From Halomonas denitrificans (GTDB lineage: Bacteria; Pseudomonadota; Gammaproteobacteria; Pseudomonadales; Halomonadaceae), in the NCBI RefSeq assembly GCF_003056305.1, contig NZ_PYVX01000001.1:682001-746000 (forward strand): a stretch of 64,000 nucleotides of DNA, written 5' to 3'. Below, in pieces: positions 32,127-52,941 of this stretch. Below the pieces are notes generated by a model, which saw only the letters and a program-made list of their open reading frames with translations, was not told where the DNA came from and made no database searches. A program made the position numbers and the translations under genes. How positions within the stretch are numbered: position 1 is the first letter of the stretch; every line of letters begins with the position of its first letter.

Positions 32127-32236
32127 GGGCGCCGGGGACAGGTCGAAGAGGGGGTCCTACGCCATGGATGGCGTCGGTAGCGCCCAGGGAAGGGTTCACA
32201 GCGCCCCCTCGCAGACCTGTCGACGGATCAGCCGAG
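32127..32236 (+). repeat. Intergenic repeat family, copy A (110 bp)
   Basis: Starts GGGCGCCGGGGACAGGTC and ends ...GACCTGTCGACGGATCAGCC, so GACAGGTC/GACCTGTC form terminal inverted arms. The centre contains TCCTACGCCATGGATGGCG then TCGGTAGCGCCCAGGGAAGG. It matches copies B (36839-36966) and C (52736-52941, inverted). It fills most of the nudJ-mnmA gap and ends about 55 bases before the mnmA -10 box. Confidence 0.8.
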
Positions 32237-32291
32237 AGCGATAGCGCTGGCGCTTGCAAGACCCGGCTCGGCGCCGGACGCCGACATCATG

Positions 32292-32297
32292 TATAAT
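32292..32297 (+). promoter_or_regulatory. -10 box of mnmA
   Basis: A perfect TATAAT preceded directly by TG, 38 bases before the mnmA ATG. No recognisable -35. Confidence 0.55.
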
Positions 32298-32335
32298 CGC
32301 GCCCCATTTACGTCACACCGATTCCGAGGGCGCCC

Positions 32336-33466
32336 ATGACCGCCACCACAGGCAAGGTGATCGTCGGCATGTCCGGCGGCGTCGACTCCTCCGTGTCCGC
32401 CCTGCTGCTGCTCGAGCAGGGGTACGAGGTCGAAGGCCTGTTCATGAAGAACTGGGACGAGGACGACGGCACGGAGTACTGCACCGCCAAGGAGGACCTG
32501 GCGGATGCCGAGGCCGTCTGCCAGAAGCTCGGCATCCGGCTGCACACCGCCAACTTCGCCGCGGAGTACTGGGACAACGTCTTCGAGCACTTCCTGGCCG
32601 AGTACCAGGCGGGCCGCACCCCGAACCCGGACATCCTCTGCAACCGCGAGATCAAGTTCAAGGTGTTCCTCGAGTACGCCGAGATGCTCGGCGCCGAGAA
32701 GATCGCCACCGGCCACTATGTTCGTGAAGGGCAGGTCCGCGGCCGTCTCGATGGCGACGAACGCCCGCGGCTGCTCAAGGGCCTCGATCCCAACAAGGAC
32801 CAGAGCTACTTCCTGCACGCCGTGCCGGAGGCCGCCATCGCGCGCACCCTCTTCCCGGTGGGCGAGCTCGAGAAGCCCGAGGTGCGCGCCATCGCCGAGC
32901 GCCACGGCCTGGTCACCGCGCGCAAGAAGGACTCGACCGGCATCTGCTTCATCGGCGAGCGCCGCTTCAGCGACTTCCTCAAGCAGTACCTGCCCGCCCA
33001 GCCCGGCGTGATCGAGACGCCCGAGGGCGAGGTGATCGGCGAGCACATGGGCCTGATGTACTACACCCTGGGCCAGCGCCAGGGGCTCGGCATCGGCGGG
33101 CTGCCCAACCACCCCGACGCACCCTGGTACGTGGCCGCCAAGGACCTCGAGCGCAACGTGCTCGTCGCCGTGCAGGGCAAGCACCACCCGCTGCTCTACA
33201 CCGACAGCCTGGCCACCGAGGCCATGGACTGGGTGGCCGGCGAGCCCCCCGCCGCCGAGGGCCGCCTCACCGCCAAGACCCGCTACCGCCAGGCCGACGT
33301 GCCCTGCACCTTCCGCACCCGGGAGGACGGCGGCGTCGAAGTGCGCTTCGACGACCCCGAGCGCGCCGTGACGCCGGGACAGTCGCTGGTGCTCTACGAC
33401 GGCGAGATCTGCCTGGGCGGCGGCGTGATCCGCGCCACCTGGAACGCCACGGAGCCCGGCCAATGA
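32336..33466 (+). CDS. mnmA: tRNA-specific 2-thiouridylase MnmA
   Basis: Thiolates U34 of Lys, Glu and Gln tRNAs using sulfur relayed by IscS-TusBCDE. The 376-residue protein has the PP-loop '[15 protein letters not shown]' (residues 11-25), the two catalytic cysteines in '[12 protein letters not shown]' and '[13 protein letters not shown]', and '[11 protein letters not shown]' in the C-terminal part. ATG 32336 is 38 bases after a TATAAT box. The stop overlaps hflD by 4 bases. Confidence 0.97.
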
Positions 33467-34104
33467 CCGCCTCGACCCCGATCCACCGCGCCCCCGAGAC
33501 CCCGGCCGCCCGCCAGGCCCTGGCGCTGGCCGGGGTCTTCCAGGCCGCCCACCTGGTCGACGAGCTGGCCCGCACCGGCCAGGTCGACCAGCGCGCCTGG
33601 GAGACCCTGATCCGCGCCACCCTGGACACCAACCCCGAGAGCTTCGAGGCGATCTACGGCGGCCACCCCAACAATCTGCGCCAGGGCCTCGAGGTGCTCG
33701 AGGGCGTGGTCGGCCGCAAGCAGGTCAACCCGGTGGTGCTGCGCTACGGCTTCTCGCTGCTGATGCTGATGAACCAGCTGCGCGGCAACGACGCCATGAT
33801 GGACGACCTGGGGACGCGCCTGACCCGCATCCAGGGTCAGGCCGAGCACTTCGGCGAGACCCATGAGAACGTCATCGCCAGCCTCGGCGAGGCCTACCAG
33901 GAGACGCTCTCGACGCTCAAGACGCGCATCGTCGTCCAGGGCGACCCGTCGCTGCTGCAGAGCCGCATGATGCCGGAGCGCGTGCGCGCCATCCTGCTTG
34001 CCGGCATCCGCTTCGCCCTGCTCTGGCATCAGCAGGGGGGCCGGCGCTGGAAGCTGGTCTTCCAGCGCGGCGCCCTGAAGAAAGCCCTGGACCAGCTGGG
34101 CTGA
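33463..34104 (+). CDS. hflD: High-frequency lysogenisation protein HflD homolog
   Basis: A 213-residue, all-helical, membrane-peripheral protein. In E. coli HflD (YcfC) sits between mnmA and purB and modulates lambda CII. Its cellular role is not settled. Recognised from '[21 protein letters not shown]', '[20 protein letters not shown]' and '[19 protein letters not shown]', read in segments, and from the conserved mnmA-hflD-purB order. ATGA overlap with mnmA indicates coupling. Confidence 0.93.
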
Positions 34105-34141
34105 TCCTTTTTTTACCACCCCCGTGACCGGAACCCGACCC

Positions 34142-51326: not shown

Positions 51327-51359
51327 TCGCCCGCAGCGTCTAACAAGGAGTCAGGACCC

Positions 51360-52652
51360 ATGAACAACGCACAGCTCAACGACCTCAAGCAGCGTTACGT
51401 GGCCAGCGGTGCCGCGAGCCCGGCCACCCAGTTCGCCGACCGCGCCGAGAACGCCCTGATCTGGGATGCCGACGGCAACCGCATCATCGACTTCGCCGGC
51501 GGCATCGGCGTGCTCAACATCGGCCATCGCCATCCCAAGGTAGTCCAGGCGGTCAAGGACCAGCTCGACAAGGTCATGCACACCTGCCAGACCGTGATGC
51601 CCTACGAGGGCTACGTGAAGGTGGCCGAGAAGCTCAGCCAGGTCACCCCGGTGCGCGGCCATGCCAAGGTGATGCTCGCCAACTCCGGCGCCGAGGCCCT
51701 GGAGAACGCGGTCAAGGTCGCCCGCGCGGCCACCGGCAAGAACAACGTCATCTGCTTCGACGGCGGCTACCACGGCCGTACCTTCATGACCATGGCGATG
51801 AACGGCAAGGTCGCCCCCTACGCCACCGACTTCGGCACCATGCCGGGCAACGTCTTCCGCGCGCCCTACCCCGTGCCCTACCACGGCGTCAGCGAGGACG
51901 AGGCCCTGCGCGGCCTGAAGATGGCGCTCAAGACCGACGCCAACCCCAAGGACACCGCGGCCATCGTGCTCGAGCCGGTGCTCGGCGAGGGCGGCTTCTA
52001 CCCGGCGCCGGCGAGCTTCCTCAAGGCGATCCGCGAGATCTGCGACGAGCACGGCATTCTGATGATCATCGACGAGGTGCAGTCCGGCTTCGGGCGCACC
52101 GGCAAGCTGTTTGCCATCGAGCACAGCGGCGTCGAGCCGGACATCATCACCATGGCCAAGAGCATGGCCGACGGCATGCCGATCTCCGCCGTGGTCGGCA
52201 CCGACAAGGTCATGGACGCCTCCGGCGGCAACTCGCTGGGCGGCACCTACACCGGCAGCCCGGTCTCCTGCGCGGCGACCCTGGCGGTGCTCGAGGTGTT
52301 CGAGGAGGAGGACATCCTCGGCAAGAGCCAGGCGCTCGGCGACAAGCTGGCCAAGCGCTTCGCCCAGTGGCAGCAGGACTTCGACTGCGTCGACAACGGT
52401 CGCAACATGGGGGCCATGGCCGCCATCGACCTGGTCACCGACAAGGCCGCCCACACGCCGGACGCCGACCTCGCCGCCGCGCTGTGCAAGAAGGCCCGCG
52501 AGAAGGGGCTGATCCTGCTCTCCTGCGGCCTCTACGGCAACACCATCCGCTTCCTGATGCCGGTGACCATCGAGGACGAGATCCTGGAAGAGGGCCTGGC
52601 CATCGTCGAGGAGTCCCTCAAGGAGCTGGTCGGCCAGCCCGCCACCGCCTGA
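51360..52652 (+). CDS. gabT: 4-aminobutyrate--2-oxoglutarate transaminase
   Basis: A PLP enzyme converting GABA and 2-oxoglutarate to succinate semialdehyde and glutamate. The 430-residue class III aminotransferase has 'DFAGGIGVLNIGHRHPKVVQ', 'MLANSGAEALENAVKVAR', 'FDGGYHGRTFMTM', the PLP-Asp in 'LMIIDEVQSGFGRTGK', and the Schiff-base Lys in 'TMAKSMADGMPISAVVG'. AAGGAG precedes the ATG. It lies 33 bases after gabD. The glutamate produced connects to the large NAD-GDH encoded at 8568. Confidence 0.96.
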   Translation: MNNAQLNDLKQRYVASGAASPATQFADRAENALIWDADGNRIIDFAGGIGVLNIGHRHPKVVQAVKDQLDKVMHTCQTVMPYEGYVKVAEKLSQVTPVRGHAKVMLANSGAEALENAVKVARAATGKNNVICFDGGYHGRTFMTMAMNGKVAPYATDFGTMPGNVFRAPYPVPYHGVSEDEALRGLKMALKTDANPKDTAAIVLEPVLGEGGFYPAPASFLKAIREICDEHGILMIIDEVQSGFGRTGKLFAIEHSGVEPDIITMAKSMADGMPISAVVGTDKVMDASGGNSLGGTYTGSPVSCAATLAVLEVFEEEDILGKSQALGDKLAKRFAQWQQDFDCVDNGRNMGAMAAIDLVTDKAAHTPDADLAAALCKKAREKGLILLSCGLYGNTIRFLMPVTIEDEILEEGLAIVEESLKELVGQPATA

Positions 52653-52674
52653 TCCCGGCGACCCCGCCCGACCT

Positions 52675-52701
52675 CACCGCCCGGCCCTGAGCCGGGCGGT
52701 G
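52675..52701 (+). terminator. Terminator of gabDT
   Basis: A perfect 11-bp stem (52675-52685 with 52691-52701) with a 5-base loop, followed by CTGGTTGG. Weak T-tract. Confidence 0.6.
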
Positions 52702-52735
52702 CTGGTTGGGCCCGGCGAATCCAGTCACGTCACTC

Positions 52736-52941
52736 GAGGCTAATCCGGGGACAGGTCCCGAACTGTCGGACCATCGGGGAGGCGCTGTAACCCCCTCCTT
52801 GGGCGCTACCGATGCCCTGCGGCGCTCACGCGTCCCGCTCCGCTTGCAGGACCGGTGCTGGCCATCCATGGCCAGCCCGTTCGAAGCGATGCTTCTCCCC
52901 CCTGGCATGGGACCTCCCCTTCGACCGGTCCCCGGCGCCTC
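52736..52941 (-). repeat. Intergenic repeat family, copy C (about 205 bp, inverted, with internal insert)
   Basis: Read on the minus strand it begins GAGGCGCCGGGGACCGGTC and ends GGGACCTGTCCCCGGATTAGCC, matching copies A and B in order. About 85 extra bases sit in the middle, after the GGTCCCATGCCAGG block and before GCATCGGTAGCGCCCAAGG. The insert contains its own palindrome GGCTGGCCAT/ATGGCCAGC. It occupies much of the 363-base gap between gabT and the gene at 53016. Nothing else is recognisable there apart from the gabT terminator. Confidence 0.8.

Follow-up and report, generated by a model that had tools for sequence, protein, structure and literature searches.

What kind of element is repeated between the genes of a 64,000-nucleotide stretch of the Halomonas denitrificans genome (contig NZ_PYVX01000001.1, positions 682,001 to 746,000; hereafter the window)? 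An original prediction, made from the letters alone, had pointed to three intergenic copies, A, B and C, and left their family unnamed. We find that these copies belong to a multi-copy family of palindromic repeats in which two hairpins carry conserved GGA-containing loops. On balance, we favor the view, drawn from sequence comparisons, that the element is a non-autonomous intergenic repeat of the YPAL/RU-2 type (YPAL, Yersinia palindromic sequence) and that its GGA strand, once folded, is a putative paired docking module for CsrA near the 3′ ends of genes.

A Repeat Family with Two Hairpins Enclosed by Paired Arms

The three copies were found where the prediction had placed them and with the block order that it gave, and all of them are intergenic by home-made gene calls (gene contexts, in this genome and in all others, are approximate, having been derived with a home-made codon scorer). 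Chance similarity was ruled out, since the motif GGCGTCGGTAGCGCCCAGGGAAG, allowing up to three mismatches, matches the window at exactly the three copies and shuffled sequence has no match. The family extends well beyond them. BLAST returned 46 matches in the H. denitrificans genome at E ≤ 1, and a covariance-model search, the kind of check that the prediction had proposed, returned at least 53 at E ≤ 0.1, at least 44 of which reach 74.9 bits or more; the model counts are lower bounds, 150 of 3,216 candidates having been scored.

Thirty-three copies from this genome, a set that leaves aside the long variants and the copies later found by the model, align without gaps over a 67-nt core. This core is composed of a basal stem, hairpin 1 (eight pairs), a GTAGC block, hairpin 2 (three pairs) and TTCACAGCGCC, and outside it are a 13-pair arm and a 5-pair end that varies by locus. 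Of the cells in the 19 copies that are exactly 110 nt long, 92.7% are paired, and double-sided changes occur at 24 of 36 pairs, a count reached by none of 500 shuffles. The pairing proposed for the arms of copy A (ACAGGTC with GACCTGT) is correct, and the paired arm substitutions that the prediction had named as a test of its idea are present. An alignment across genomes contains 202 double-change cells, vs. 67 in shuffles. The alignments show that a palindromic arm pair encloses two predicted hairpins, with arms and stems co-varying and loop letters fixed. The arms are paired in each genome, but their sequence is not conserved between genomes, and they therefore do not look like classical terminal inverted repeats. 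Hence, of the small mobile or structured element originally envisaged, what stands is a structured, multi-copy family resembling a miniature inverted-repeat transposable element (MITE) with turnover at its sites, and what seems not to is the classical nature of its ends.

A variant of this layout has a 16-nt GGCCGGCCCCGCTCG-type block between the basal stem and the right arm (L009, L018, L023, L026 and L034). The block of L023 is precisely missing from its sister copy, L275.

The Loops Resemble CsrA Sites and Are Kept at Shared Sites

The loop form CANGGANG, in which the N positions vary, is found in hairpin 1 of all 33 aligned copies and in hairpin 2 of 32, and such loops recur in 31/35 and 34/35 cores taken from 25 genomes. 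We take CANGGANG to be an RsmA/CsrA-type site. Two hairpins 22 to 24 nt apart would suit one CsrA dimer, and the loops of 146 copies of the wider family are spaced by 22 (n = 46), 23 (n = 86) or 24 nt (n = 14). In the available text of PMC4347634, the CsrA consensus obtained by systematic evolution of ligands by exponential enrichment (SELEX) is RUACARGGAUGU, with GGA in a hairpin loop and with ACA and GGA fully conserved; this 12-nt consensus occurs exactly in hairpin 2 of 13 of the 146 copies. Two sites can pair on one CsrA dimer, according to the parts of PMC4383904 and PMC4333381 that were accessible.

Sites shared with a sister genome reveal which parts of the element are kept. This genome (G293), for whose 65 matches 50 loci were fetched, has 18 sites in common with that of H. 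denitrificans (G000), with flanks that are mostly 90 to 96% identical. Copies were accepted if each loop had no more than two changes outside N and hairpin 1 was paired at five or more of six positions, a rule that misses wholly lost loops. Among the 34 loop substitutions at the 18 sites, 33 are at N positions and one is at the closing C; the ratio is 30 of 31 without a doubtful pair (L020/L304, 73.7% flank identity) and 13 of 14 in the eight pairs with a core identity of at least 0.9. Eight of the 18 sites have another hairpin-1 stem, again paired, and four elements are flipped. Four other orthologous pairs, from which the non-orthologous L179/L246 and L179/L250 were excluded, add four loop substitutions, all at N. 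The confinement of loop substitutions to N, together with the re-paired stems, indicates a present-day importance of both the pairing and the letters CA-GGA-G, either at each site or via copying between sites.

In other genera, orthologous copies alter their arms by paired substitutions, which weakens the idea that arms are newly made at each insertion; L198 and L260, for example, differ by four adjacent double changes. Sites have been seen filled, empty, flipped and apparently decayed.

Relation to YPAL/RU-2, TwoAYGGAY and Ysr224

The family left unnamed by the prediction is of the YPAL/RU-2 kind, judging from its sequence, and is overlapped by two Rfam models, TwoAYGGAY and Ysr224; the window copies are a divergent, new member of this known kind of repeat. 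A by-eye comparison with the RU-2 sequence, as given in the accessible part of PMC2759123, shows that the core is shared. In that source, the core of RU-2 (YPAL is 167–168 bp long) consists of a GCGCC-AAGGAT-GGCGC hairpin, CTCGAGC, a hairpin CTACATGGATGTA and then TTTACGGCGTC, whereas the genus of H. denitrificans carries TTCACAGCGCC in place of the last block. Like YPAL, the family consists of dispersed intergenic copies at sites that may be filled or empty. In the portion of PMC2229807 available, YPAL is reported from Yersinia and Erwinia carotovora, as recently mobile, with target-site duplications of 3 to 26 bp and targets at dyad symmetry, and as linked to upstream genes or transcripts, perhaps through their stability. 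The arms in our genus differ from those of YPAL, and CsrA has no occurrence in that text.

TwoAYGGAY (RF01731) is described, in the part of PMC4333381 at hand, as two GGA-loop hairpins with a poorly conserved outer stem and a proposed role in CsrA binding; the accounts available present it as an RNA candidate, not as a dispersed repeat. Rfam clan CL00106 holds both TwoAYGGAY and CsrC. Of 20 loci retrieved around TwoAYGGAY matches, 18 show the match and our family model coinciding on the same strand (the misses are L450 and L451). At E ≤ 0.01, TwoAYGGAY matches 7 of 14 genomes, two of which exceed its cut-off of 43 by less than 1 bit (G052, 43.8; G435, 43.3), and the core of one further locus, L178 in G322, scores 44.0. 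There is no match at E ≤ 0.01 in the H. denitrificans or G293 genomes, 20 loci of the former are below the gathering cut-off, and the window as a whole has no Rfam match at gathering cut-offs. The H. denitrificans loops read A-N-GGA-N, vs. A-Y-GGA-Y for TwoAYGGAY, with CATGGATG in 7 of 33 hairpin-1 loops. L178 is about 1.3 kb from two tRNA genes.

As for Ysr224 (RF02770), it has matches at E ≤ 1e-3 in 12 of 14 genomes, all below its cut-off, and where coordinates were compared the matches are at the same place on the opposite strand (e.g., G239:C1, G056:C8 and G202:C16). Three G518 copies that have the same core as RU-2 (L171, L172 and L176) exceed the cut-off. In the H. denitrificans genome there is no match at E ≤ 1e-3, and the best of 20 loci reaches 23.3 bits against a cut-off of 70. 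Ysr224 was ranked in a top 20 with multiple hits per strain counted, according to the part of PMC9029176 available. Taken together, YPAL, TwoAYGGAY and Ysr224 look like a single family whose CsrA-type loops are under constraint. Among top-ranked literature results, with most subscription papers outside reach, no paper joined YPAL or Ysr224 with CsrA binding.

Repeated GGA hairpins are common to the family and to the sponge RNAs CsrB/CsrC and RsmX/Y/Z. The latter are single small RNA (sRNA) genes with many sites, whereas the repeat consists of dozens of dispersed two-site modules. By description rather than alignment, the family is like ERIC, REP/BIME and classical MITEs in being an intergenic palindromic repeat, and unlike them in that its arms are not conserved as terminal repeats. 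Another lead, the Alcanivorax repeat AR1, led nowhere.

A Putative CsrA Docking Module and Competing Explanations

Mismatches in the arms bear on which strand folds. G.U exceeds A.C by 29 to 5 in 41 copies of diverse genomes, by 48 to 8 in 78 scored of 146 copies, and by 26 to 11 (seven A.C and four C.A) in 62 scored of 81 copies from named genomes; copies from the same genome lack independence, and the diverse and named sets may have species in common. This excess makes the GGA strand the likelier folded one, as RNA or single-stranded DNA. Sense copies outnumber antisense copies in the H. denitrificans genome (30:11) and in the named genomes (20:13), and convergent sites outnumber divergent ones (8:2 in H. 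denitrificans, 11:6 in other genomes, 25:8 in named genomes; 44:16 pooled).

In the docking-module reading, the GGA strand would fold as RNA, chiefly in transcripts close to the 3′ ends of genes, with both loops held by a CsrA/RsmA dimer, making each transcribed copy a small putative CsrA docking site. Its effect could be local, on its own transcript, or the copies could jointly be a sponge. Copies would spread by an enzyme acting in trans; between the compared species, turnover takes the form of elements lost, inverted or replaced where they stood. A bolder proposal, which we put forward as speculative and rather unlikely in full, is that YPAL, TwoAYGGAY and Ysr224 form a single family, spread over the class, of repeats that are selfish or domesticated and supply gene 3′ ends with paired CsrA docking sites; dozens per genome would form a distributed, evolvable CsrA buffer, and the Csr network, with no need for a sponge RNA gene of its own, would be tuned by gain, loss and inversion of copies. 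Were such readings true, the repeat of about one in seven sampled gammaproteobacterial genomes (41/274) would be a CsrA-binding module, and three entries would show it in different guises: as a repeat in DNA, as an RNA motif and as an sRNA from the opposite strand. Tallies of Ysr224 as an abundant sRNA would then tally a repeat, while the role of TwoAYGGAY and the idea of mobile repeats feeding a global regulator with binding sites would become testable.

Several results weigh against CsrA docking. The core stems have no G.U excess (G.U to A.C 5:7, 11:8 and 16:16). Orientation is 18:39 (sense to antisense) in six other genomes, which rules out a universal sense-orientation rule and brings the pooled ratio to 68:63, and antisense copies in H. 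denitrificans also keep their loops. GGA is nearly always present in the loops of this genome, but ACA precedes it in 8 of 33 for hairpin 2 and 1 of 33 for hairpin 1, so that the CsrA match rests on the looser form CANGGANG. The presence of csrA is not linked to the family (37/41 carriers vs. 198/233 others, p = 0.47), and two carriers are outside the csrA hits, namely G069, which is 88% complete and has 17 matches, and G196, which is 98% complete and has 8, a point limited by completeness. Most TwoAYGGAY matches are below its cut-off. Two points call for care with the TwoAYGGAY overlap itself: at E ≤ 0.01, cmscan lists the model in only 3 of the 20 loci retrieved around its matches, and animal microRNA families are hit by chance, through the palindromic arms, with scores like those of TwoAYGGAY. 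Finally, two covariation measures in the cross-genome alignment show no excess over shuffles (140 and 55 of 500). An RsmZ match of 20 bits in the H. denitrificans genome (cut-off 44) is uninformative, since 8 of 14 controls match too.

A possible, though less probable, explanation is that the repeat is a generic 3′-end structure, a transcript stabilizer or two-way terminator-like palindrome, in which the long stem matters and CsrA has no role. The pooled excess of convergent sites and the link of YPAL to upstream transcripts, perhaps to their stability (reported in the available part of PMC2229807), agree with this, and a palindrome functions in either orientation. However, it leaves unexplained that CA-GGA-G is fixed in both loops while the stems vary, and no U-tract was seen after the arms in the copies inspected.

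It is also conceivable, if somewhat doubtful, that the fold acts in DNA, one strand being extruded as a T-shaped hairpin whose loops are recognized by a mobilizing enzyme (e.g., of the HUH type), the likeness to CsrA sites being convergence. The core stems are indeed poor in G.U pairs, elements are flipped and replaced at their sites, and RAYT genes are commoner in carriers (35/41 vs. 136/233 others, p = 0.0008), which, with loops intact in either orientation to genes, keeps a DNA-level explanation in play. Yet shared sites keep their loop letters while N positions vary, the RAYT association may merely reflect mobile-DNA load or kinship, and the H. denitrificans genome has no RAYT match (NF047646, E ≤ 1e-10), so that RAYT was rejected as the mobilizer there.

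We consider it quite unlikely that structure is free of selection and that the covariation stems instead from gene conversion among copies or from correction of the DNA palindrome. Such processes would fit the block-wise exchange of hairpin-1 stems at 8 of the 18 shared sites and the adjacent double changes between L198 and L260, but not loop letters that stay constant while N positions change, the strand-specific G.U excess of the arms, or one stem position that is left uncorrected as a non-pair in 84 of 146 copies (mainly T.T or T.C).

Highly improbable, lastly, is a conserved small peptide, ASVA...APPR, encoded by the repeat: its frame is open in the 67-nt core of all 33 aligned copies, third codon positions are slightly less conserved (1.64, 1.50 and 1.39 bits) and an open frame is also reported for RU-2 in the source text available, but stems are swapped as pairs, loop spacing varies in the wider family, and two other copies in the genome (L079 and L082) carry an insertion of one nucleotide in hairpin 1 and yet keep the two loops intact. 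The insertions and the variable spacing indicate that structure is kept and frame is not. The retained frame that the prediction had noted is thus real among the aligned copies but not kept family-wide, and it looks like a by-product of the conserved core.

Distribution of the Family

The H. denitrificans model, at E ≤ 1e-3, accounts for the 41 of 274 sampled gammaproteobacterial genomes mentioned above, its own included. A broader model built from 35 cores matches 28 of 38 relatives, namely 24 of 25 genomes of the genus, with 11 to 64 matches each (48 in H. denitrificans), plus 4 of 13 genomes from elsewhere in the order. In a sample of the phylum, 29 of 398 genomes match, every one within the same class; matches per genome were counted among the 18 best candidates in the gammaproteobacterial sample and the 12 best in the phylum sample. 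The sole member of the genus without a match among the 25 sampled is G274, with a genome of 2.9 Mb, which makes it a ready comparison free of the element. A pattern scan of named genomes, for which 80 of at least 119 stretches were listed, includes Marinobacter, Microbulbifer, Zobellella, Pectobacterium and Rheinheimera and, among the matches listed, one metagenome-assembled genome titled Rhodospirillaceae, which is outside the class if correctly binned.

Phages searched with copy A as the only query gave no match. Among plasmids, an Enterobacterales-type copy is found at one place each in 15 records; it adjoins an alcohol dehydrogenase gene in the two records opened and in one Escherichia coli chromosome, and looks like it rides on a carried-in segment. 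Matches occur in five of 5,426 E. coli genomes, and a 1.8-Mb Halomonas plasmid record that lacks usable annotation contains ten places.

The Three Window Copies and Their Surroundings

Copy A (32126–32235, plus strand; R1 core match 32145–32211, 95.6 bits) is a 110-nt element between a NUDIX gene ending at 32057 and mnmA starting at 32336. Its hairpin 1 (32156–32177) has the loop CATGGATG at 32163–32170, and its hairpin 2 (32183–32194) has CAGGGAAG at 32185–32192. Copy B (36839–36963, plus strand; core 36858–36924, 87.3 bits) is a 125-nt element with an additional arm-side hairpin, between a JmjC/ROXA-like gene (end 36799) and a GNAT gene (start 36983), and displays CAGGGATG in hairpin 1 (36869–36890) and CAGGGAAG in hairpin 2 (36896–36907). 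Copy C (52736–52941, minus strand) is a long variant of 206 nt with a weak R1 match (52775–52843, 30.1 bits), flanked by a 4-aminobutyrate transaminase gene (end 52652) and an open reading frame at 53016–53630 that has no family match and is of uncertain strand. The large insertion predicted inside it is real: a larger domain takes the place of hairpin 1 and still includes an inner hairpin with CATGGATG (52857–52876), while hairpin 2 (52792–52803) has the loop CAAGGAGG.

By eye, copy A is upstream of a TATAAT-like box common to most congeners, and is therefore probably outside the mnmA leader. Of the 24 genomes of the genus that could be assessed at this site in the same way, 3 have an element, reversed in one of them, in the 300 nt upstream of mnmA and 21 have none; one further locus was truncated. 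Among congeners without the element (region upstream of mnmA, L111–L131), several have short tandem repeats such as (GAAGCTC)n, (GCGGCCAA)n or (AGCTGGA)n downstream of the stop codon, in some cases accompanied by inverted partners, and these 3′ regions appear to be a hot spot where repeats of different kinds gather. Downstream of purB, the G295 site orthologous to a G293 element has another palindromic repeat, which contains just one CAGGGATG hairpin and may represent a related one-loop family. Inverted pairs of elements, about 100 to 300 bp apart, are common elsewhere (L179–L188 and L446 in G597; L438–L440 in G435) and recall REPIN or BIME pairs.

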